Shown: positions 9,003-24,803 of the stretch, piece by piece
How positions within the stretch are numbered: position 1 is the first letter of the stretch
How the letters are laid out: every line of letters begins with the position of its first letter
NCBI RefSeq assembly: GCF_001077815.2
Contig: NZ_CP011310.1
Span: 1,054,001 to 1,118,000, forward strand
Direction: 5' to 3'
Length of the DNA stretch: 64,000 bases
DNA from: Aurantiacibacter atlanticus
Lineage (GTDB): Bacteria > Pseudomonadota > Alphaproteobacteria > Sphingomonadales > Sphingomonadaceae
The notes under the pieces: generated by a model
The model's input: the letters and a program-made list of their open reading frames with translations, nothing else
What the model was told of the DNA's origin: nothing
Database searches by the model: none
Made by a program: the position numbers and the translations under genes

Positions 9003-10520
9003 TTAGATTGGGGGATCCTCCGCAATCAGCGTTCGAAATTCATCTATGCGTCGAAAAGGGATCACTCTCGGATTGAGTGTCACGACAGGAAAGCGGCTCA
9101 AGAGGAAGTGCCGCACTTTCGACAAACCAAGCCGTTCCTTAAGCAGGTGTTCTCGAGCTTCCTCTTTGGCCAGGGCCTTGCCGTAGTATCGATCAAGCCT
9201 GCAATTGTAACGCGCGAAACGAACAGGATCGGTCTCAATGCGATTAATATCGATGAGGTTGTTCTTGCACTGTACGTTGTAGATGACCTGATCTAGCGTC
9301 GCGACTACATCGAACTCTTTGCGGTTGATGCGCTTGACGTCGGTAACCGCAAATCCCTGTTTAGCGAGCGCGGCATTCACATTGTCTTCGAAGATAAAGC
9401 CCGACCGGATTTGAAAGCGCCGCTGGCGGTTGAGACAGGCAGTTTTCCAATAATAGAGGAATCGGCTGAGAAGGGTCACCGTCGAGATATGGGCGCCGTC
9501 TAACCTAATGAACGGCGCGATCGCATTGGTGCACGCAACGTAGTCCGCATCGTGATGCTCCAAGTGTCGGCGTAAGGCCCCGGGGAGCTCGGCCTCATCG
9601 GCGAGTTCAGTAAGACGGTCGGCCGGTAGTTTGATCAGATAGTCATCCTCACAGCAGGCCAGGCACGCTTGGACGAAATGCGCCATGGGGCCAAAATCAG
9701 TCTCCATAAGCGCAAATTCGGCATAGGCCGCCTCCATCAAACGGATATCATTGCGTAGTTCGGCAGCAGAAAAGATTAGGCGGGGATCGACCGGCTCCAG
9801 GGTGGCCATGATTTGCGCGCCATCCATGCCGGGCTGCACGTCCAAAATCCCCGCACGCTCAGGTTCCAGAAACATGCTTTCGAGCAGCTCGTACTCGTAA
9901 TTGGCTGTGAAGCCGTTCGCACTCACGTTAAGTGCGAAATCGGGGAAAATTCGAGCCAACATTTGTTTTTGATGTAGGCCGGTAATCGTTGCACCGCTGT
10001 GTTCGACCAGAGGCAGAATAAAATTCAGCGTATCTATTCGCCCCATCTCTCGCGAGCCGCGACAGGCTAGCGGCATGGCGTAGAGCATCGCGACGAGATG
10101 GCGTCGGCGGGATTGAAAATATCCGATCGCGTGTGCGATGGTTTGAAATCCGGAGGCAACTTCGAACAGGCCGTGGGCACGAAAGGCTGCACCGATCGCG
10201 CTTGCCTGTATTACAGTGAGAAGAAAACGCTCGGCGAGACGCTCGCCAAATTGATCAATCAAGGCGCTTCGTATCGACGCCAGCGCGGTCGGGTCGAGAT
10301 CGTCGAGACGAAAGGTTACGATAGCCTGTTCGAGAGCATCGTCCTCAAGGCCGAAGAGCGGCAGATTGATAAACTCTTCGATCGCGCGGATCGTATCGAG
10401 CCAAGCATATACACTGCTTTGGGCCCGGAAGGGCGCAAGCGCTTGGGCGATACCGCCACTGTGCGCTGCGATTTGCTGCTGGATAAGGGTTTCGGCTGCG
10501 GGGCCGGTGATCTGGTGCAT
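9003..10520 (-). CDS. Putative defence nuclease with C-terminal PD-(D/E)XK-like domain (505 aa)
   Basis: Last gene of a three-gene minus-strand operon, starting 4 nt after the 595-aa gene. The first 370 residues are mostly helical with no family I recognise. The C-terminus shows a restriction-endonuclease-like pattern: E378 in 'GFIFEDNV', then 'EFDVVATLD' (D404), then 'YNVQCKNN' (Q417, K419). This is the E..D..QxK arrangement, a known variant of the PD-(D/E)XK core in Mrr-like nucleases, and 'QCKN' near a hydrophobic strand is typical. I infer a DNA-cleaving effector. The 204 bp between this stop and the relaxase stop hold nothing recognisable. Confidence 0.7.
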   Translation of the reverse strand: MHQITGPAAETLIQQQIAAHSGGIAQALAPFRAQSSVYAWLDTIRAIEEFINLPLFGLEDDALEQAIVTFRLDDLDPTALASIRSALIDQFGERLAERFLLTVIQASAIGAAFRAHGLFEVASGFQTIAHAIGYFQSRRRHLVAMLYAMPLACRGSREMGRIDTLNFILPLVEHSGATITGLHQKQMLARIFPDFALNVSANGFTANYEYELLESMFLEPERAGILDVQPGMDGAQIMATLEPVDPRLIFSAAELRNDIRLMEAAYAEFALMETDFGPMAHFVQACLACCEDDYLIKLPADRLTELADEAELPGALRRHLEHHDADYVACTNAIAPFIRLDGAHISTVTLLSRFLYYWKTACLNRQRRFQIRSGFIFEDNVNAALAKQGFAVTDVKRINRKEFDVVATLDQVIYNVQCKNNLIDINRIETDPVRFARYNCRLDRYYGKALAKEEAREHLLKERLGLSKVRHFLLSRFPVVTLNPRVIPFRRIDEFRTLIAEDPPI

Positions 10521-10524
10521 GCTG

Positions 10525-12312
10525 CTAGCTGTTGCCGGCCTTGCAGTCGGGAGCTGGCGCCCCTTTTTTTGATCCGCCAGAGGGCTTGTTTTGCTTGGTG
10601 CGCCGTCGTCTTTTCGGCTTGGTTAATTTGGGCAATAGCACGCTTTGCCAGTCGATCTTCCTGCGCTGCGAGAAATCGGATTCGAGGGCGACGACGGCGG
10701 GAAGGCCCGGATGGGTTTCCACCGCACGGCCGATCCAATCCAGCGCTGCATCAAAGTCTCGCTCTTTGCGGCAGCGCTCCGCCAGCGCGAAGCACATCGC
10801 CGCGTCGAGCAGTTTCGGGGCGTGCAATCCGCCTGGTTTGGAACGCTGCTCGAAATAGCGCTCAAGCGTCTCCTTGTGGGTCTCGAGAGGCCATGCGTCG
10901 AGGGAACCGAATAGGGTCCCCATTACCAGTGCTTCGCTACTTGGTTCGCCGATCTTAGCGGAATGCTGTTGCAACAGGGCATCGAGCCTCTCGGATCGAT
11001 CATCCTTTGACATCAGAGCCGCAAACAGGGTGTAAAGCGTGAGCAGTGTCGTCCGGTTGGCTGCGCCACTCGACTTCGCCAGTCGTTCGATGTCCGGATA
11101 AATCGGCCTCAGGTCGGTAATCGTGGCCTTTTGTTTACCCGCCAGAAGTGGCACGATCTGGCTTAAATGACCTTCCAAGCGTTGCCGCGCATCTTTTGCC
11201 TTTCGCAACGGCCTACCGACCCAAAGTTCGGGCGCGAGTGGCGCCATCACCACGCCTGATTGTTCCATCATATAATCGTATGGCTCGTGCTCGACCGTGT
11301 TGCCCGTGGCGACAAACGCCGAGATCACGTGGTGCGTCAGCCGAATAAGGCCTTCGAAGCTGAGCACGGGGCGGCGATCGACTTCGGCCACTTCGCGATG
11401 ACCCTGCGCGAGGGTAAGGGCATCAGGCAGTTCGCGTAGGTTATGCACATAGCGCGAGCGATGCGCGTAGGCTTGCCTCAGCGCTTCTTCTAGTTCGTGC
11501 CGAGCAATGGCCGCGCCCGGTACGAGCCCGGAGGCCCTGAAATAGTCGCCGCCGACATGATTCAGAACGAATGCCCGGTAACGGCGCGCCAAGGAAGCAT
11601 GCTCGGTGGATCGGATCGCCTCGCGAACGCCATCACGAGTGCGTGCTGAGGCTTTCGCCAGCGCCTTGTCGACCGGACCGCGCTTGCGCTCATCGACATC
11701 GTGCCAGTGCGTCGAATATCCGTCGAATTCCTGCGCGAGCGATTCAACCGCTGAAACGAAGAGCGTGTAGGCGAGTGCCAAGTCGTCCCGCATGCGATGG
11801 AGGCCAGTGACGAAGGTGCGGATAGCGCGCATCGCCGCCAAGAAACTCTTACGATCCAGTGCGATCAGCTGGTCGACAAACGCAGAGAAAAGGGCGATCT
11901 CGTCATCGCGAAGCGGCAGGCGCTCATCGAAATAGCGCAGCGCGAATTTGCTTGGCGGGTCGTAGGATGCGAACCCAGGCCCTTTGGAGGTCAGTCGTTC
12001 GACTACTGCGGCGTCGGGGGACACGATTGCCCGCAGGCCAAAGCTGGCGAGGGCGGAGAAATCGGTGAGAAAGGGCGCGATCGTGTGCGAGATCAGTATT
12101 CCCGGCCCGGCCTCAGCCGCCTCAATCCTTTCTTCGATCTCGTAAACGATGGCCCGGTTTCCGCGAATGCCGTCGGTTTCTCGGAGGGTTCCTGCGACGG
12201 TCGGGACATCCTTCCCGTAGCAGAGCTCCAAATTGGAGTAGAGCACGCCGCGCAGTTGATTCGTCCGCCCAACACCGCGCGTATAGAGCTTGCCGCTATT
12301 GATCTGCAGCAT
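10525..12312 (-). CDS. HEPN-type protein of the putative defence operon (595 aa)
   Basis: Middle gene of the operon; its start overlaps the 3' end of the 2191-aa gene by 17 nt. Residues about 180-300 look like an Apea-type HEPN domain: 'VSAVESLAQEF' helix, then 'ALRQAYAHRSRYVHNL' with the RX4H signature R285-H290. HEPN proteins are often metal-independent RNases in abortive-infection and toxin systems. The C-terminal third has a TPR-like helix pair ('ALDWIGRAVETHPGLPAVV'), and the extreme C-terminus is strongly basic (KPKRRRRTKQNK). The RNase role is inferred from one motif; the HEPN domain could also be non-catalytic. Confidence 0.7.
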   Translation of the reverse strand: MLQINSGKLYTRGVGRTNQLRGVLYSNLELCYGKDVPTVAGTLRETDGIRGNRAIVYEIEERIEAAEAGPGILISHTIAPFLTDFSALASFGLRAIVSPDAAVVERLTSKGPGFASYDPPSKFALRYFDERLPLRDDEIALFSAFVDQLIALDRKSFLAAMRAIRTFVTGLHRMRDDLALAYTLFVSAVESLAQEFDGYSTHWHDVDERKRGPVDKALAKASARTRDGVREAIRSTEHASLARRYRAFVLNHVGGDYFRASGLVPGAAIARHELEEALRQAYAHRSRYVHNLRELPDALTLAQGHREVAEVDRRPVLSFEGLIRLTHHVISAFVATGNTVEHEPYDYMMEQSGVVMAPLAPELWVGRPLRKAKDARQRLEGHLSQIVPLLAGKQKATITDLRPIYPDIERLAKSSGAANRTTLLTLYTLFAALMSKDDRSERLDALLQQHSAKIGEPSSEALVMGTLFGSLDAWPLETHKETLERYFEQRSKPGGLHAPKLLDAAMCFALAERCRKERDFDAALDWIGRAVETHPGLPAVVALESDFSQRRKIDWQSVLLPKLTKPKRRRRTKQNKPSGGSKKGAPAPDCKAGNS

Positions 12313-15300
12313 CGCTTGGAGCCCTCTCGTCGGAGGAGGTCTTGCGGCGGGCGCGGCTTCTGGGCCAGGCTTGACGGCGCGGACATCCCGCCGCTTCGAT
12401 CGCCGTCAGTCGATCACCAAATTCGCCACGCTCATAATGGCCAAGGTTTGCAATGGCCGCGCGAACCGGCTTGGGCACCGCGTATAAGACCTCGAGGGGC
12501 TGGTCCGGGCGGACAATCAGCGCGAGCATCTGGTGTCGAAAGTGATCATCCTTGGGATCCTTCTCGATATACCGACGCACCTTGATCAGCAGGAGGAGCG
12601 CCTGCTGCTCAGCTTCGAGCAGCGGCTTTAAAGCATCCCATTTGACCGCAAGCCTAGTACCGCCTCGCTCGGTCGCATGGCGGCCATGCCCCCTGCGGGT
12701 TCCCCACGCGTTGGCGCGGAAAGTCCATTGATCGGCAGAATCTACCCATAGGCGCTCGAACGCATCGGCTTTCCACAAGGACATCTTTTCGACGGTTTGC
12801 GCGGAGGGCCGCACGCGCTGAAGCGCTGTCTTGAAACCAAAGGGGTCGCGTTCGTCGAGTTTTGTATACGCATGGTCATCGCTGCTGAGCCAGCGCGTGA
12901 GCAACTGCTTTTCGCGATTGTCGCGGCGGTCGAAACCATCATCTTGGTCAACAGGCAAGTAGGCGAAGAAGGGATCGGCCGAATAGACGGCATGAGCGAC
13001 AGTGCGGGCCATGTCGCGCTCAACAAGCTGGGATCCGATGGTAACGTCGAGACCATCGATCGATTCCCAGCTGCCACTAACGAGGAAACTGCTTGGTAGA
13101 TTCAGCGAATCATCGAAGCCAGCGAGCGGCAAGAGATCCAACGGATGGGAAGGCACCGAGCCTGTCTCGCTGGCGCCCGGCATATACGGAACGACCGATC
13201 GCGCGTCTTCCAGCGGGAACAAATCGGTTCCGTCCGCCAGCCACAGCCCATCGCTTCGCGACAAAGTTTTTTCGGCAAGCCAGCTCTCCCAAGGCGTTTC
13301 TTGCCAGCTATCGCCGATGATGGGCTTATCCGCGGCGAACTGTCCTGCGGTGAGCATAAGCGCGTGCCAGGCGAGATAACCACCATAGCGGTCAATATCG
13401 GGAAATGACGTCGAACCATAATTGCGATCGTCTTCCGATGACCAGCGAGGCCGAGGGCAATCGTACATGGTCTTGACCTCGGCATCGTAACGCCGAATCC
13501 AGTTCGTCGCTGCATCTTGTACGTCCCATTTGGGGAGGACGAACAATCTGCCCAGCGGATCGATCTGGTATTTGTCGAAATCATAATCGAAGCGGAACGG
13601 GGATGGATGTTCGGGCCGATCGGCCGGCCGTATGTCGTAAAAGCCGGGCCGGTGGCCGGATCGTGATACGCGCGGCATTGCAGGTACGTTCAGTGTCTCA
13701 AGCCAGGCAAGATAGGTACCCGGCTCCGGAATCGATCCGCTTAATGCAAGCGCGCGCAACGCCAGGATGGCGAAATGGCGACAGAGCGCGTGCGGGAAGC
13801 TTTCGCTCGTCGCGATGGCCTCAAGCGCGTTTCGATAAGGTAGAACCGTTGCGGGCGCATCGCTTGCCAAACGGGCGATGGCGATGAGCAGCCAGAGGCG
13901 CGCATGCAAATGAAAGAAAGGAAGCGTTTGATCTTGGAATGCGCCGGCGCCGGTGCGATCGATCCCTGCAACAAGCGCGTCAAGGAAGTGCGTCTCGCCC
14001 AGCGCCACCAACCGCCGAATGCTGTGCGCCGCTCGCCACCTACTTGCCGCATCGGGCGCTCCGAGGCGCATCCATAGAAGGTCTGCGACGATCGTGTCTT
14101 CCTCGTCGGTCGTCGAGAAGGTGCGCGTCCACGGTCCATCCCCGATCGTATCGGGCAGTGACTGCGTTGAATGTTCGGCATAGCGGCCCAAGGCGTCACC
14201 GATCGACGAAGCGCTTGCAGTTCTTGCCAGCTCGATCGCGCAAGCCATCCAGAAATCGCTGGAAACCTCAAGATTTTGGCCTGGTGTTGCCTTGAGCACA
14301 GCGGCGACAAGGCGTTCGCGCGCGCCACCTGCCAACCGTGCGACGCGGGACAAGGGGCGGCGCCAGCTATCCCCAGACCGAACAACTGCCCCAAGATCCC
14401 GCAGTGCAATGCCAAGGGCTGCTTCCTCCAGTTGCCCGTCAAGGGCTCGTGATTGGCCGGCCCATTGCTCCTGCGCCTCCTCCAGAAACGACAGCTTGTC
14501 GGCGAACGAGAGCTGTAGATCCTCGACGACGGTCGAGAGCAATGCTGTTCTCGGACCGGGTTCGGTGACGTCCGCCACGAATCCGCTGAGAATAAAACCG
14601 TCGGTCGGTCGATATCCCTCAAAAGCCGCGGCACCTTGCTCGATCGCTGCCCGCAATTCGTCTGCAGTGATGGCCGACGCCTTGCGAAGTGCATCGGGCG
14701 CGATGGGCTTCGGCCGCGCTGTGGGAGCCGTTTCGGCTTTAGTGCCCCGTGTCCTGTCGGCGTGCAGCGACACGATGCGCTTTCTGGCGGCTGCCTGCTC
14801 TGAAAGTTCGTCTTGGAACAATCTTTTCAAGCCGTTCACCGTCTCGCGGTGAGGCCGGGCGGCGTCCTCGCGATCTAGGTCGGCGACGATCATGTCCGCG
14901 AATACTTCGCGCAGGTGCCCGGGAAGGCGGACCATGATGGGTCTGGCCACCTCCGGGGGAAACCAGTTCCAAGTCGATTCAAAAGCGGCGAGCCCGAAGA
15001 GCCCTGCAGCGAGCGTTGGGCGTAGACGATCGCGTTCGACGAGTGCCTTCAACATCGGCGTTAGCGTCCATCCGAGGCCGACCTTGTCCCGGTCCGAGAG
15101 GCGGGCCATCGCTGCCAGTCCGCCAGTTGATCCAATGGCAGACATTGCCTTTGCGAAGTTGCGCCAATCGAGCGCTTCTGCTTCGTCGGGAAAATTGAGT
15201 TCGCACAAACGTACAAATTGGTGGACCGCAGCTGCCGGCAACGGCTCGCCGGAATATTGCGCAGCGAAGGTGATGAAGTCGCCGATCCGTTCCTGATCAT

Positions 15301-18300
15301 CCGACCCGACCGCATCTGCGAGTTCCAGTCCGATGCGAAAATAGGGCCGTGCCTCGTCGGGCGATATCGGGAGGAGCGCGCGCGCAAGCATGCCGTAGGA
15401 TTGGATCTGCTTGCTGACATCGGTGTCTGCGGCAATCACTCGCTCCGCTTGGCCGGCAAGCCGCAAGGCCGCCGCTTGAGTTTCCTTTCCACGGGCGAGC
15501 AACGCTGTATATCGCAGCCAATCCGATACGAGCTGGGATCCGGATTGCTCAAGGAAGGCGGCCAAGGCTTCGCCGCTGGCTTGATCGAGCGGAGCGCGGC
15601 ATTGCGCAGCCCATCGGAGCACATCGAGACAAAGATGTCTAAGGAAGCGATCCTGATCGCGATAGGGATAGTTCGATGCGGATGTTATCGCGTTCTCTGC
15701 GCGCGCCAACGCAGCGGCGATCGCTGGCCCGGGTCTGTCCGTGGTCAGAATTGCTGCGACATCGTCGACCAAGGACGTGAGCGGCGCCAGACGGTGGGAG
15801 AGAAGGCGTTCCCAGCGCCTCGCTTCGTCGCTGCCCGGCAGCTTCCTTTTCCGTTTCGCGCGATCATTCTGGGCTTTTGTGAGGACGGCACGCAAATGGC
15901 GTTCGAAGGCGGCTGGTCCGCGTCGACGGATCGAGAGCGGTACCAGCGCGCACATCTCCTCTGGCACAATATCCGTAATCGCTGTCGATCGCCGCCGGGC
16001 TGCGGCAGCAATCGCAGCGCGCTTAAGGTGTCGCGAGACACTTCCGCCGCTCAGAGGCCAGGGATCGTCGATCTCATAGGTGCGTAGATCTGGAGCTGGC
16101 ACATGCAAAACAATTGCTTGTGCTTCGCGCACCAGTCCCATGCCGATCGCCTGCCCACCGGCCGTGAGGAGCGCGTCGGACAGGCGGTCCTCGCGTCGAT
16201 AGTCGAAATAGCTGCCTGGTTCGAATGGCTCCGGTTCGAGCTTCGCCAGGCGCGTGAGCAACCGGCACCTTGTATCGGGCGTGACTTCAATCCGCTCCAA
16301 GATCGCAGCGATTACGACCGGGGATTGAGTTCTGCACTTCGCCATTGCTGCAATCATCTTGTCGGCAGGCGCGCTCGCATCTTTCGCTTTTGCCAGCCGG
16401 TCGACAAACGCCAACATGTCGGCGGCAATTTTGAACGCATAGATATCGTTCAAGCCGGACAACCAGCGGTCGACCCTGACGGCCTTTCCGAGCAGCAGCT
16501 GGACGAATATCGCTTCGGCTTCGAGCAGGGCCAGGTCCTTATGCCCCTTCGATCTGCCTTCGCGCCGCTCGCGGAGGGACCAATTGAACCAGGTCAGAGC
16601 GCGATCGGATTCCAAGGACGCGCTGTGCATGTCTCCTGAGAAGGCGTCCAGCACGGCCAACGCGGAATGCCGGACACCTGGCCAGCCGGATCGGTCGTCT
16701 CGAAAGCGCCGTATGGCTTCGGGGTCCTCACTGAGAGCGACGAGATCTGGATGAGCGCGCAGATAGGCATCGCTGCGTTCGGAGGCGCTGGCAATGCGGG
16801 ACGCTTCCACTGTGATCCGCGTCAAATCGTCAGTTCGCCCGCCGCGTGCGCACGCAGAGGCTGCCGCCTCGAGGCGAGCCAGCCGTATCGCGCGATGGGC
16901 CACGCGGCCGAGATCGGGGCTCGAGAGCGAATCGAATGCCAGCGTGACCAGAGTATCGATCTCGCCGACCTCCACCAAAATTCCAGGGAGTGCGCGCGCG
17001 GCGTAGATAGAACGGTCCTGCCTCGCTAGGAGACGCGCCACCAGATCGCTGCGTGCTACCGTGTCGGCCCCGATCATCTCGACGACCAAGGTTTCAGTCG
17101 GCTCATCTCGAAAGATCAGTCCGGTGAGTGTTGCTTCGATGAGAGGAAAGAGGTCCGCGACGAAGCTTTGCACGTCACCGGCGTCCAATCCCAACGCCGC
17201 GGCGAGTTCTTCGATTGGCACGGGCGGGGGCAACATCGCCATGCCCGCGAGCAGGCCGCGCGCTTCAGCTTGCGTGGCACCACGGGCAATCGCCTGCTCT
17301 TGGGCGGCGTCGATCTGTTCACGTAGAAGCCCTTCGAGTGTCTCACCCTCGCCACCTGGCCCCTCGATATCGAACGGCTCGCCGCGGCTCAGAAGATTGT
17401 CGAGCAAGCGCGGGTTGCCGGCCGATCGGCGCTGCAGGACAGTGATGTCGTTCTCGCTTGCGGTCGGAAATCTTGCTCGAACGAGACGTTCCGTTTCGTC
17501 GCGAGTGAAGATGGGGATCTCAAATTCGCGGCACCGTGCGTCGCCCTGTGCAAGATGGCGGCGATGACTACGGCACGATGCGACGACACGTATGCCGTCC
17601 AGAGGCGCTACGTTCAAACTCTGTAATAGGATTTGCGCGAAGGATTGGGTTCCCGTCCGCTCGGCCTGCATGCCGCAATGATCGATCGCATCGAGGATAA
17701 GAACGACGTGGGCGTCCGGCTTGAACGCCCGCAGCGCTTGCACGCTTGCACTAAGTCGGTCGCGAAGCGCACCGATATTGTCTTCAAGATGGCTGGCTGG
17801 AAGCTGGATATCGCACAGACCATCGGCCGCCAGCAGATTGGCGAGATGGGGCAGTGACTTGCGCGGCAAATGGCGGCCATCGGACGGCTCCCGCCACCTG
17901 CCCGCGCCGAATCCGTCGAAAAGCAGGACGCAATGCTGGTCGTCCAACTCGCGCGCAAGCGCTTGCATTAAGACGGTTTTGCCAACGCCTCCTGCAGCAT
18001 GAACCAACAAGGCACGCGTATCGGCGAACAGCGCCGCAACGAGGTCCTTCAGGACCGGGCGCGATATCGGCGTTTCGATGGCGGGGAAGGCCGCCTCTAC
18101 CGGATAGAGATCGCGTTCATAGGCGACGTCGAGCGCTCCGAGGACGTCCACCCGGCCGATGACGTTGTCATCTTGTCCGCGCATGCCGGCGCGATCGCGC
18201 ACCAGCCTGCGCAAATTTGCCAGGCGAGCATGGCTCAGATTGTCAGTCGCCCCTGACCAGGACGCGAGTACTTTCAGATTGCCATGTTCGGTCGCGTCGA

Positions 18301-18871
18301 GCGCTTCGCCGGTTCCTATAAGGCTGAGTTTTCGGGTAAACTCCTGCAGAGCTTCGCCGTCCAGGCCAATCGCTTCCCGAAGTTGTTGGGCATGCCGTGC
18401 GACCCGCCCTTCCGCCGCGGTACCGGACCGCAACGCCTCGAGGGCAGTCATCGTATCTCGATCGATAGGGCGATTGGTGATCAGCGCAAATTTCGCAAGC
18501 TCGGGTTCGGCCGGTCGGATTGTTTCGATGTCGTTGTTGGCTCCGACAAACTTATTCAGGGTCTTGGACATTTCAGCAGCCCGCATTGGCTCATGCGCCG
18601 AGCTGACGGAGTACTTAAATTGCAGGGTTTCGATTTTGGTGGCGGATAGGATCCGCGATCCGCCGCGATACCGAGTGAGGTCCGCGATTTCATGGGCAGT
18701 CTGCGAAACATCCTCTGCTTCTTCGTGGGAAAAGCCCTCAATAGCGACTGCACTGAGATCGGTGTCAGGGGGAAGCAATTCGAGACAAAGGCGCGCTGCC
18801 CAAGCCTCGTGGAATTGGTGCCCATCGCGGGATGCCCGTACTACGTCTATTTTATCTGACTGTCCGCTCAT
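12296..18871 (-). CDS. Giant STAND-type NTPase with nuclease-like N-terminus (2191 aa)
   Basis: First gene of the candidate defence operon. Residues about 15-90 (GHQFHEAWAARLCLE...EIADL...LQFKYS) resemble the DUF4297/Cap4-like endonuclease fold, with D64 and a QxK-type motif at Q84-K86. Residues about 265-500 form a P-loop STAND NTPase: Walker A 'HAAGGVGKT' (291-299), Walker B 'VVLILDAIDHC' (389-399), a sensor-like 'RVVASCRSH' and a 'GNPRLLDNL' motif. The remaining 1,600 or so residues are helical-repeat-like, with a less repetitive Trp/Asp-rich C-terminal part. The order nuclease, STAND, repeat sensor matches Avs-type anti-phage NTPases, though the length and partners are unusual. Confidence 0.75.
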   Translation of the reverse strand: MSGQSDKIDVVRASRDGHQFHEAWAARLCLELLPPDTDLSAVAIEGFSHEEAEDVSQTAHEIADLTRYRGGSRILSATKIETLQFKYSVSSAHEPMRAAEMSKTLNKFVGANNDIETIRPAEPELAKFALITNRPIDRDTMTALEALRSGTAAEGRVARHAQQLREAIGLDGEALQEFTRKLSLIGTGEALDATEHGNLKVLASWSGATDNLSHARLANLRRLVRDRAGMRGQDDNVIGRVDVLGALDVAYERDLYPVEAAFPAIETPISRPVLKDLVAALFADTRALLVHAAGGVGKTVLMQALARELDDQHCVLLFDGFGAGRWREPSDGRHLPRKSLPHLANLLAADGLCDIQLPASHLEDNIGALRDRLSASVQALRAFKPDAHVVLILDAIDHCGMQAERTGTQSFAQILLQSLNVAPLDGIRVVASCRSHRRHLAQGDARCREFEIPIFTRDETERLVRARFPTASENDITVLQRRSAGNPRLLDNLLSRGEPFDIEGPGGEGETLEGLLREQIDAAQEQAIARGATQAEARGLLAGMAMLPPPVPIEELAAALGLDAGDVQSFVADLFPLIEATLTGLIFRDEPTETLVVEMIGADTVARSDLVARLLARQDRSIYAARALPGILVEVGEIDTLVTLAFDSLSSPDLGRVAHRAIRLARLEAAASACARGGRTDDLTRITVEASRIASASERSDAYLRAHPDLVALSEDPEAIRRFRDDRSGWPGVRHSALAVLDAFSGDMHSASLESDRALTWFNWSLRERREGRSKGHKDLALLEAEAIFVQLLLGKAVRVDRWLSGLNDIYAFKIAADMLAFVDRLAKAKDASAPADKMIAAMAKCRTQSPVVIAAILERIEVTPDTRCRLLTRLAKLEPEPFEPGSYFDYRREDRLSDALLTAGGQAIGMGLVREAQAIVLHVPAPDLRTYEIDDPWPLSGGSVSRHLKRAAIAAAARRRSTAITDIVPEEMCALVPLSIRRRGPAAFERHLRAVLTKAQNDRAKRKRKLPGSDEARRWERLLSHRLAPLTSLVDDVAAILTTDRPGPAIAAALARAENAITSASNYPYRDQDRFLRHLCLDVLRWAAQCRAPLDQASGEALAAFLEQSGSQLVSDWLRYTALLARGKETQAAALRLAGQAERVIAADTDVSKQIQSYGMLARALLPISPDEARPYFRIGLELADAVGSDDQERIGDFITFAAQYSGEPLPAAAVHQFVRLCELNFPDEAEALDWRNFAKAMSAIGSTGGLAAMARLSDRDKVGLGWTLTPMLKALVERDRLRPTLAAGLFGLAAFESTWNWFPPEVARPIMVRLPGHLREVFADMIVADLDREDAARPHRETVNGLKRLFQDELSEQAAARKRIVSLHADRTRGTKAETAPTARPKPIAPDALRKASAITADELRAAIEQGAAAFEGYRPTDGFILSGFVADVTEPGPRTALLSTVVEDLQLSFADKLSFLEEAQEQWAGQSRALDGQLEEAALGIALRDLGAVVRSGDSWRRPLSRVARLAGGARERLVAAVLKATPGQNLEVSSDFWMACAIELARTASASSIGDALGRYAEHSTQSLPDTIGDGPWTRTFSTTDEEDTIVADLLWMRLGAPDAASRWRAAHSIRRLVALGETHFLDALVAGIDRTGAGAFQDQTLPFFHLHARLWLLIAIARLASDAPATVLPYRNALEAIATSESFPHALCRHFAILALRALALSGSIPEPGTYLAWLETLNVPAMPRVSRSGHRPGFYDIRPADRPEHPSPFRFDYDFDKYQIDPLGRLFVLPKWDVQDAATNWIRRYDAEVKTMYDCPRPRWSSEDDRNYGSTSFPDIDRYGGYLAWHALMLTAGQFAADKPIIGDSWQETPWESWLAEKTLSRSDGLWLADGTDLFPLEDARSVVPYMPGASETGSVPSHPLDLLPLAGFDDSLNLPSSFLVSGSWESIDGLDVTIGSQLVERDMARTVAHAVYSADPFFAYLPVDQDDGFDRRDNREKQLLTRWLSSDDHAYTKLDERDPFGFKTALQRVRPSAQTVEKMSLWKADAFERLWVDSADQWTFRANAWGTRRGHGRHATERGGTRLAVKWDALKPLLEAEQQALLLLIKVRRYIEKDPKDDHFRHQMLALIVRPDQPLEVLYAVPKPVRAAIANLGHYERGEFGDRLTAIEAAGCPRRQAWPRSRARRKTSSDERAPSDAADQ

Positions 18872-19117
18872 TAGGTTCTCAAGTTCCCGCTAGAACGAAG
18901 ATAGAACAGATGTGGATAAGGAACAAGTCGAAGGCCGACCTTATTGAGGAAGTCAAAAGGATAATTTGGGGCTCAAGATTCCTCATTCCGGAACCCTCCT
19001 AGTGCGAGCAACGTCACGATGGCGTGTAACTGGAACTATCGAATTCCGGCACGTTGGCTTTATCTGGTGCATAAACTACCCGTGGCAGACGCAGGCCGAA
19101 TCTGCCATCCTTCAAAG

Positions 19118-20254
19118 ATGACCTCGGATGATCCATTTGGCCGACGACCCCATTCGGTTGTCGAGGAGTTCTATCGCCGCGAAAAACAGAGAAGCGATCT
19201 GATTAAACAGGCGCTTGGCCCGACCTATGCGCTGCAACAGCAAATGAACGCGCTCAAACCGCATCTGGGCTTAATGTCCGAAATGCAAAACGCAGGCATA
19301 CTTGGTGCCGTAGATCAGGCGCGAAAGCTCCATGCTGAAGAATTCAGGTCGCTCAACCTATTGATGTCCTCTCAAAGACTTTCAGGTGTCACCCAAGCTG
19401 CGATGGCATTGAGCCAGCACAATGACGGGCTGCTATCCAACATCCGAAACCTGTCGCGGTCCTTTGACACAGGCATCCTTGCGACGGCGAAAGCGCTGCA
19501 AGGCAATAATTCTGTCCTAGCTGCCGCAATGGCAGCTTCCAAATGGCAGGATCAATGGAAGTCGTTGGCGGAACAGCTTTCACCTGGCCTGCTAGCTCTG
19601 CGCGCGACTGCCGAACGAGCAATGATTCTCGATATGGCGACGCTCCGTGCAACGGCTGAGCATTTGCATGGTTCAGCGGCGTACATCGCAGCCCAACAAG
19701 TCATCGAAGCCCAAGAGTTGGCGGAAGCACTCACTCACGCGGAAACGCCGGATGAAAGTGCAAAGCTCTTTGTGGCATTCGTCGCCGCGATTGCGGCAAT
19801 CTTCAAAGCTCTGGGAGACAACACGGTCGATGAGTTGCGGCGTCAAGGATTGCTTGGATTGCTGGTGATCACAATGACAATCATGGCGCTGCCGCAGCTT
19901 CAACCCGACCCTGGCATGACCGCCGAAGAACAGCAGGCATATTCAGAGCTTCAGGAAAAAGTCGATGATCTACAAGACAGCCTGCGGGAGCTTATCGAAG
20001 CGGAGGGAGAACTGAGCGGGGAGTATGTGGCTTCGCTTCCGAGAGGCGAATTGGCCCGCAAAGCCAACATTCGCTCTGGTCCTTCAGGTTCAGCGGCCCG
20101 CATTATGGTTGCCGATGCGGGAACGCCGATTGCCGTTGTGAAGAGCGAAAAGCGATGGAGACTTGTTGTCTATCGAGACCCTCTGACCGAACAACTCGCG
20201 CAGGGTTGGGTTTATGAGACGCTGGTTGCCATGGTGGGCGATGATCAGTCTTAA
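19118..20254 (+). CDS. Membrane protein with C-terminal SH3-like domain
   Basis: A 378-residue protein divergent from the 2191-aa gene. The N-terminal half is soluble and helical, possibly coiled coil (many Gln/Leu/Met). Two adjacent hydrophobic segments follow (AFVAAIAAIFKAL and GLLGLLVITMTIMAL). An acidic coiled-coil linker precedes a bacterial SH3-like domain over the last 75 residues, with 'KANIRSGPSG' and '...WRLVVY..QGWVYETLV'. Such SH3 modules usually bind peptides or cell wall. A longer start at 19019 exists, but its extra 33 residues do not look coding; neither start has a good Shine-Dalgarno. Its position suggests a link to the defence cargo, without direct evidence. Confidence 0.6.
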   Translation: MTSDDPFGRRPHSVVEEFYRREKQRSDLIKQALGPTYALQQQMNALKPHLGLMSEMQNAGILGAVDQARKLHAEEFRSLNLLMSSQRLSGVTQAAMALSQHNDGLLSNIRNLSRSFDTGILATAKALQGNNSVLAAAMAASKWQDQWKSLAEQLSPGLLALRATAERAMILDMATLRATAEHLHGSAAYIAAQQVIEAQELAEALTHAETPDESAKLFVAFVAAIAAIFKALGDNTVDELRRQGLLGLLVITMTIMALPQLQPDPGMTAEEQQAYSELQEKVDDLQDSLRELIEAEGELSGEYVASLPRGELARKANIRSGPSGSAARIMVADAGTPIAVVKSEKRWRLVVYRDPLTEQLAQGWVYETLVAMVGDDQS

Positions 20255-20354: not shown

Positions 20355-20939
20355 ATGGTCAGCTTCAGCAACTTCCAGCGGCTCGATCCCGTCGCGCGGG
20401 ATGTCGCGATCGAATTGCTCGCTAACGCGCAAGGGCAGCCGCCCTCGTTCATGGCATTCATGTACCGGTGGATGGCCTTCAACGGCTGGATGTCTGCGGT
20501 GACCCTGAAGGACACTGACAGGGAGATGATCGATGCGTTCGTGGCTGCTCCGCGGCTGATCGACGCCTTCGATCAGCTGATGGCCGGCGATCCCAATTTT
20601 CGGCAGATGGTAACCGAGTTCACCGCCTTGTGGCCCGTGCTCAACGTGCGCAGCGTGCGAGCTAAGCTCGGCTATGACGCGTTTCGCCAGCACGATCGCG
20701 CCGCGCTGCTGGCGCTCTGTGCGGCGGCGAATGTTAAGCAACAGCCCTCCGGCTGGGTCGCCGAAGGCCGTCCAAGCTGGGAGCAGCTACTGCGGACCAT
20801 CTATCAGGTGCGTTGCAATCTCTTCCACGGCGAGAAGTCGCCCCAGAGCCTCCGCGACCGTGATCTCGTGCTTGCCTCGGATCATATCCTGGCGCACTTC
20901 ATCGCGGCAACGGGATGCTTCGACTGGCACGATCATTGA
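20355..20939 (+). CDS. HEPN-like protein (194 aa)
   Basis: A good ribosome site (GGAGGGGA) precedes the ATG. The C-terminal 60 residues carry a HEPN signature: 'LLRTIYQVRCNLFHGEKSP' with R153-x4-H158, followed by 'RDLVLASDHILAHFI'. This is the usual Apea-type HEPN pattern found in toxin and abortive-infection RNases. The N-terminal part is helical and unassigned. It overlaps the next gene, so the two probably form a two-gene unit. Whether it is an active RNase cannot be told from the motif alone. Confidence 0.65.
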   Translation: MVSFSNFQRLDPVARDVAIELLANAQGQPPSFMAFMYRWMAFNGWMSAVTLKDTDREMIDAFVAAPRLIDAFDQLMAGDPNFRQMVTEFTALWPVLNVRSVRAKLGYDAFRQHDRAALLALCAAANVKQQPSGWVAEGRPSWEQLLRTIYQVRCNLFHGEKSPQSLRDRDLVLASDHILAHFIAATGCFDWHDH

Positions 20940-24167: not shown

Positions 24168-24803
24168 TCAGAGCGCTCGCCCGAACCAGATGACCCGCCC
24201 AACCACGTGCACTTCGGAGCGGTCCATATCGTTCCAGGTCGGATATGCCGGATTGTCGCTGGCGACGGTGATCTGCCTCGCTCCTGGCTTGATAGCGATG
24301 CGTTTGACAGCCAGCACATCGTCGGTGCGCAGAACATAGATGCCATCGCGCAGCCGCGAGCCATGATCCGACGCATCGACGAGGACCTCGTCGCCGTCAC
24401 TCAGAGTAGGCTCCATGGAATCCCCAAGGACACGCACAATCGACAGGCTGGCGCTCTTGGCGGGCGTCAGTGCGCGCAGCCAGCGTTCATCGAAGCCGAA
24501 CCTTGTATAGGCATTTTCGCTGGCCGCAATCGCGCCAAACCCGGCCGAGGCCTGCACATCGAGAATGGGGATCTCGACCATGCCATCATTGTCGCTCTTT
24601 TCCGGGCCACCGAGCACGTGCTCATCGACCCCCAAGAAGGAGGCGAGCATTCGGCGATCCTCCGGCTCGAGCGTCTTGGGCGAACCGCGCTTGATGAACT
24701 GCTGGATGTAGCTGGGGTTGCGACCGAGCATCCGCGAGATCGCGGCATAGCCGCTTCCTCGCTCACGCAGGAGCCGGTCGAGCTCTTGTCGGACTTGTTC
24801 CAT
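24168..24803 (-). CDS. XRE-S24 (LexA/CI-like) repressor
   Basis: A 211-residue repressor. Residues 1-60 form a helix-turn-helix ('AAISRMLGRNPSYIQQFIKRG'-type, quoted in part). Residues 85-211 are a peptidase S24 domain with catalytic Ser129 in 'LGDSMEPTLSDGDEV' and Lys167 in 'DVLAVKRIA'. An Ala87-Gly88 pair is a candidate self-cleavage site. Such proteins are cleaved during the SOS response, releasing phage or conjugative-element genes. It is divergent from the small gene at 24914. The intergenic region contains paired AGAACATA-type repeats that also occur at the transfer promoters, so it is the leading candidate for their regulator. Confidence 0.88.
   Translation of the reverse strand: MEQVRQELDRLLRERGSGYAAISRMLGRNPSYIQQFIKRGSPKTLEPEDRRMLASFLGVDEHVLGGPEKSDNDGMVEIPILDVQASAGFGAIAASENAYTRFGFDERWLRALTPAKSASLSIVRVLGDSMEPTLSDGDEVLVDASDHGSRLRDGIYVLRTDDVLAVKRIAIKPGARQITVASDNPAYPTWNDMDRSEVHVVGRVIWFGRAL

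Follow-up and report, generated by a model that had tools for sequence, protein, structure and literature searches.

We analysed a stretch of 64,000 nucleotides (nt) of the Aurantiacibacter atlanticus genome (hereafter, the window), which belongs to a contig of 3,012,400 bases in a genome of 3.2 Mb. Three consecutive minus-strand genes of the window encode proteins of 2191 amino acids (aa; hereafter, the giant), 595 aa and 505 aa (Table 1). A preliminary description of this DNA had assigned them to one operon and proposed them as a candidate undescribed three-gene defense system. The operon itself was confirmed: the open reading frames (ORFs) lie at exactly the positions and have exactly the lengths described, the start of the 595-aa gene overlaps the 3' end of the giant gene by 17 nt, and 4 nt separate its stop from the start of the 505-aa gene. 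Since each of the three proteins has full-length homologues, these are not chance ORFs. Overall, the operon looks like an unusual two-gene variant of the known Avs3 defense rather than a wholly new three-gene system.

Table 1. Features of the three-gene operon, in window coordinates
Feature	Position	Strand	Basis
Avs3-like giant, 2191 aa: N-terminal nuclease, NACHT/STAND NTPase (about residues 270-470), long C-terminal sensor	12296..18871	-	PADLOC, Pfam, NCBIfam, SeAvs3 (8dgc)
Giant, predicted nuclease core E45, D64, Q84-K86	18614..18739	-	Kept at ≥90% in 21 sequences; QFK against SeAvs3 QLK
Giant, Walker A, residues 290-301	17969..18004	-	Sequence and alignment of 21 giants
HEPN-candidate protein, 595 aa	10525..12312	-	ORF, full-length homologues, RX4H conservation
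RX4H motif R285-H290 of the 595-aa protein	11443..11460	-	Invariant in 53 and 23 sequences
Predicted Mrr-like PD-(D/E)XK nuclease, 505 aa	9003..10520	-	Invariant catalytic residues; Pfam on family members
Predicted catalytic core E378, D404, Q417, K419 of the 505-aa protein	9264..9389	-	Invariant in 49 sequences

Profile searches assigned the giant to the surroundings of Avs3. Its best PADLOC match was Avs3a (E 1.1e-205), the next-best PADLOC match, mad8, reached 0.027, and Pfam recognized a NACHT domain (E 5.9e-9). SeAvs3, the Avs3 (AVAST type III) protein that recognizes the phage large terminase, is likewise a giant composed of a nuclease, a STAND NTPase and a long sensor. It was the sole PDB chain that matched the giant at an E-value of 5 or better (8dgc), aligning to residues 10-816 (i-Evalue 6.6e-82) and 1152-2104 (6.5e-55) and leaving residues 817-1151 unaligned, so that the alignment spans the half with the nuclease and STAND domains and the greater part of the C-terminal half. 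Across 21 giants chosen from 120 listed homologues (the window sequence is itself among the rows, as in the alignments of the two other families), the Walker A residues G295, G297, K298 and T299 and residue D394 were invariant, and the nuclease residues E45, D64, Q84 and K86 were kept at 90% or more, the QFK of the giant lining up with the QLK of SeAvs3. Because these residues are conserved, both the nuclease and the NTPase look intact, which bears out the nuclease and P-loop STAND domains of the preliminary description; no Pfam model of DUF4297/Cap4, the name presumed for the nuclease domain, matched. The NCBIfam Avs3a model (NF041816) matched as well (E 6e-234), with 780 bits against an equivalog cut-off of 2800 bits, and because the score lies far under this cut-off we assign the giant to a distant Avs3-like branch. 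Judged from its sequence, the giant is thus a full-length but divergent Avs3 relative. Published work on Avs1-Avs4 describes recognition of phage packaging proteins (large terminase or portal) or of a different protein, followed by nuclease-mediated killing (PMC12931631). By analogy, the giant would be triggered by the same kind of phage protein, most likely the large terminase. A scan of viral contigs for the giant yielded 37 pattern matches, with no relatives among them.

The giant and the 595-aa gene were found side by side again in Mesorhizobium camelthorni (L001), where a giant 64% identical to ours is followed, after a gap of 7 nt, by a 595-aa gene product 70% identical; the 21.7 kb read there contained no 505-aa gene. 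We also compared the sizes of the contigs that carry homologues (119 giant and 119 595-aa homologues with a size, of 120 listed each), and four sizes were common to both lists (15458, 3734931, 12734 and 41903 bases). Equal size was used for positives only; unequal size was rejected as proof of absent linkage, since the longest contigs listed for the window's own three genes differ (14026, 3012400 and 111282). The six giant/595-aa pairs diverge in step: their distance matrices agree (Mantel r 0.95, with 2 of 720 permutations as high) over divergences that reach 43% and 38%, and the order of the pairs is matched between the two trees (47 and 38 rows), in which several forks are weak. The recurring unit therefore seems to be the giant together with the 595-aa gene, in several bacterial lineages.

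To see what follows related giants, we read 13 other giant-like loci (L001, L018-L028 and L064/L065, including 8 of 18 matched plasmid records), mostly with flanks of 5 kb, and of 1.5 kb for L064/L065. Some Avs3 systems have a second gene, avs3b, directly downstream and in the same direction, at the place that the 595-aa gene holds in the window. Searches with tblastn found avs3b at 4 of the 13 loci (L023, L024, L025 and L065); PADLOC confirmed both of those tested, L023 (7e-58) and L024 (1.5e-74), L025 and L065 being known by tblastn alone. The 595-aa gene thus occupies the place that avs3b has in other lineages. The preliminary description had called STAND NTPases of the Avs type single-gene defenses, but an Avs3 with a partner gene has precedents, because Avs3 relatives in part carry avs3b downstream. 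The two partners differ in kind: Avs3b has 231 aa, whereas the protein downstream in the window has 595 aa, carries an RX4H motif and has no Avs3b match. That it might be Avs3b under another name was rejected, as PADLOC gave no Avs3b match and hhalign returned nothing. The partner slot behind Avs3-like giants seems to vary. Different genes stand behind the giants of L018 (12139-12822), L019 (12075-13247), L021 (11639-13300) and L027 (10919-13159); one gave a weak PtuB match and the rest had no PADLOC match, one of them being annotated TIGR04141. In Rhizobium leguminosarum (L022), the Avs3-like gene is broken up, its fragments separated by IS481 and IS3 transposase genes.

The 595-aa protein belongs to a family without a name or description, made up of plasmid- and virus-borne RX4H proteins; of 8000 scored candidates, 213 proteins, counting that of the window, reached an E-value of 0.001 or lower. 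Residues R285 and H290 were invariant in 53 sequences and again in 23 more diverse ones; the latter set, which reaches down to 18% identity, has 15 invariant columns, among them these two residues and E190. Similarly, the pattern Y..RS...H was present in 119 of 120 listed homologues, again with the window's own among them. By hydrophobic pattern, a crude test, the region looks largely helical: helix periodicity extends over 60% of residues 140-330, and the RX4H motif lies inside such a stretch. Pfam gave a weak TPR match for the window protein, and TPR_14 in 27 of 53 family members (best 0.00041); searches of PADLOC and NCBIfam with the window protein gave no match, and PHROGs held no family for the two viral members tested. 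AbiV and a HEPN/Toprim-associated protein were set aside as relatives of the RX4H region after profile comparisons gave nothing, each being a single-sequence and hence weak test. A reference search for HEPN_Apea matched in 0 of 59 and 0 of 42 genomes and was uninformative, since its control matched nowhere either. On the motif alone, the protein is likely a HEPN protein, and we treat it as a candidate.

The reading that we favor, with about an even chance of being correct, is a divergent two-gene Avs3-type defense module followed by a nuclease gene that is independent of it. The giant would bind a phage packaging protein, in all likelihood the large terminase that Avs3 recognizes; its STAND domain would then drive oligomerization, and its N-terminal nuclease would cut DNA. 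The 595-aa protein, co-translated with the giant and a candidate HEPN RNase whose tail is TPR-like, would take the slot of avs3b and probably add a second, RNA-cutting effector, activated together with the giant or by a phage trigger of its own. The 505-aa Mrr-like nuclease would be an added, separately acting defense gene that provides an independent barrier. Terminase sensing, the cutting of both DNA and RNA, and a functional contact between the giant and the 595-aa protein are what we infer from these comparisons. In a more specific version, which is tentative and rather unlikely, the giant is a bacterial NLR-like (STAND) sensor with two killing outputs: on seeing terminase it would cut DNA and also activate a dedicated RNA-cutting partner, the HEPN RNase, and a phage that evades one of the two arms would meet the other.

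Several observations weigh against a giant/595-aa module. The giant misses the Avs3a equivalog cut-off by far. Four of the six pairs are known from equal contig size and not from DNA that was read, and the six include three that are closely related; the giant-linked 595-aa proteins are not monophyletic in the tree (four changes are needed), a pattern that may reflect losses, gains or unseen linkage. Among the 13 other giant-like loci, the 595-aa gene was found at one, that of Mesorhizobium; L018, L019, L020 and L026, whose giants are 32-38% identical, have neither the 595-aa gene nor avs3b within reach, and for giants at 45-65% identity the neighbors were seen for few. The HEPN assignment is affected as well. 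In the 595-aa family, matches to HEPN-type Pfam models (HepT-like_2 in 3 of 53, best 0.052; HEPN-type models at 0.053 and 0.2, each in 1 of 18) were no better than matches to models of unrelated families, which equal or exceed these scores; the best PDB matches of the family were unrelated chains (0.037 and 0.021); and hhalign of the RX4H region against the proven HEPN protein Tha, a weak test with a single sequence on one side, returned nothing. Even Tha itself, however, scores only 0.025-0.029 in Pfam. The RX4H motif of the preliminary description thus stands, while its HEPN label finds profile scores at chance level.

The distribution of the 595-aa family also counts against the module and leads to its strongest rival. 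Besides the window, we read 28 distinct loci (L001-L008, L035-L050, L056, L066, L067 and L071), after dropping duplicates (L030, L061-L063 and L070) and copies from the window's own genome; six of nine matched plasmid records were read, the other three being partial matches. At several viral loci the contig stops before the flank is complete; L037-L044 are closely related to one another, and the copies at L005, L007 and L067 are split or shortened. By tblastn, the giant was present at one of the 28 loci and the 505-aa gene at none. The family thus occurs without the giant at 27 loci, mostly plasmids and viral contigs, and therefore needs no Avs partner; co-inheritance of the two genes may be mere co-location. 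Indeed, three independent defense genes stacked in one operon of mobile-element cargo, with an overlap that merely saves a promoter and a 595-aa protein acting alone in the manner of Tha, is a serious, though less probable, explanation. Stacking gains from the fact that both small families mostly occur without the giant, and from the two viral contigs that were profiled (L043 and L048, with direct neighbors profiled in part), in which the 595-aa gene lies among tail/baseplate genes on the strand opposite to its phage neighbors. At other sites, phages and satellites carry defense cargo in hotspots (PMC9122126). Tha offers a precedent for a lone prophage HEPN RNase: in the part of its description available to us, it is a single-gene, prophage-borne RNase of Staphylococcus phages set off by phage tail proteins (PMC11087260). 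It shares the RX4H motif (R265/H270) with the 595-aa family and differs from the 595-aa protein in its length of 301 aa, its C-terminal HEPN domain and the lack of any Avs link found in that part of the description, besides the empty profile comparison given above. By analogy, Tha is a likely model for how the 595-aa family works. What speaks against stacking is that the giant and the 595-aa gene are adjacent or overlapping in both places read, and that six pairs diverge in step to an extent beyond what is usual for loose stacking in a fast-shuffled island.

The 595-aa family is a candidate for an undescribed single-gene phage defense. Across viral contigs L035-L050 it recurs as an opposite-strand cargo gene. 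Its neighbors elsewhere include GajAB (L003) and a TrlF-family ATPase with a CBASS cyclase (L004). The family is rare: an alignment query placed it in 2 of 398 genomes of the phylum sample, the own genome included, and it was found in 3 of 397 genomes of the family sample and in 1 of 365 from the family of the Mesorhizobium genome (own or known genomes counted). Phage records gave one match for the protein (L071), and E. coli genomes gave no DNA-level match to two viral relatives.

The 505-aa protein was examined in the same manner. Residues E378, D404, Q417 and K419 were invariant in 49 sequences of its family, and Pfam recognized Mrr_cat in 22 of the 49 (best 8.9e-5) and PDDEXK_5 in 18 (best 0.0022); the window protein had no Pfam match, a best PADLOC E-value of 0.043 and a best NCBIfam E-value of 0.11. 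The nuclease core recognized in the preliminary description was thereby upheld, and by its conserved residues the protein is an Mrr-like PD-(D/E)XK nuclease. It has the E...D...QxK core in common with Mrr-type restriction nucleases and differs from them in about 340 N-terminal residues of no known kind. We read 11 other loci of this family (L009-L011, L051-L055 and L057-L059, with three of four plasmid records), of which L054 and L055 look like one element and L053 begins inside the gene. Both the giant and the 595-aa gene were missing from all 11. In Sphingobium baderi (L009), the 505-aa relative lies directly behind GajA and GajB, whereas the window operon yielded no GajAB-like gene; few neighbors at the other 505-aa loci were profiled. 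The phylum sample of 398 genomes held the 505-aa gene in 4, the own genome included, and phage records searched with the protein gave no match.

These results bear on the proposal of a true three-protein system, in which the giant would control both a HEPN RNase and an Mrr-like DNase. The 4-nt spacing agrees with it, as does the contig size of 15458 bases, which recurs in the 505-aa list and whose three homologues are each 87-88% identical; by equal size alone, this contig probably carries all three genes. Yet the Mesorhizobium pair does without a 505-aa gene, and the 505-aa gene does without either partner at every other locus read, which makes such a system improbable. None of the other loci read (28 for the 595-aa gene, 11 for the 505-aa gene and 13 for the giant) holds all three genes, so the same gene order expected in other genomes did not emerge. 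Independent occurrence, which the preliminary description had named as counting against its proposal, holds for the 505-aa gene, which lives apart, while the giant and the 595-aa gene recur together. We therefore rejected the three genes as one unit on account of the 505-aa gene, which we interpret as an additional nuclease gene separate from the rest of the operon. Marginally less probable again is a toxin-antitoxin-like pair, in which one of the two proteins, the 595-aa protein or the giant, restrains the other and RX4H catalysis has been lost: the giant and 595-aa genes overlap, as is common in toxin-antitoxin pairs, but R285 and H290 are also kept in giant-free relatives, which argues for a function of the 595-aa protein's own.

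Relative to known systems, the novelty of this locus would be, as far as sequences can tell, that a candidate HEPN RNase follows an Avs3 relative in the position held by avs3b in some Avs3 systems, with a further nuclease added on. An additional effector activated through the sensor has a counterpart in Avs1-type AVAST, where it is an MBL-fold DNase activated by the system's protease (PMC12799240); in the window, the effector would be the candidate RNase with its RX4H motif, and we saw no protease. Our search of the open-access literature found no paper uniting Avs3, STAND and HEPN, and no title or abstract opening that describes the giant/595-aa pair or a DNA- and RNA-cutting Avs; this is weak evidence, as subscription papers and preprints lie mostly outside the search. 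The finding suggests that Avs3-type sensors swap their partner gene, with avs3b in some lineages and in others an RX4H protein whose family also occurs on viral contigs. If the pair is functional, it would represent an Avs with an RNA-cutting second arm, and the purpose of the Avs3 partner gene would become testable. The analysis also exposes the undescribed RX4H family itself.

The surroundings of the operon are those of a conjugative element, as the preliminary description had it: we identified a TrwC relaxase, a TrwB-type coupling protein, TraG and TraH, with AbiEi and AbiEii near the operon. A 194-aa ORF (20355-20939, plus strand) is probably the second HEPN-like gene mentioned there; reading by eye gives it an RX4H-type motif (RCNLFHG), and Pfam gave no match. 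The divergent neighbor of 411 aa (19019-20254, plus strand) has a C-terminal bacterial SH3 domain and no PADLOC match at E 0.01. Adjoining AbiEi/AbiEii, a Peptidase S24-like protein (24168-24803, minus strand) is perhaps a regulator of the element. Further away, positions 1886-2721 are 79-88% identical to plasmid DNA in six records of Sphingopyxis, Mesorhizobium and Paracoccus; the counterpart is annotated as transposase/signal peptidase II in one record, and we read this segment as a shared mobile piece.

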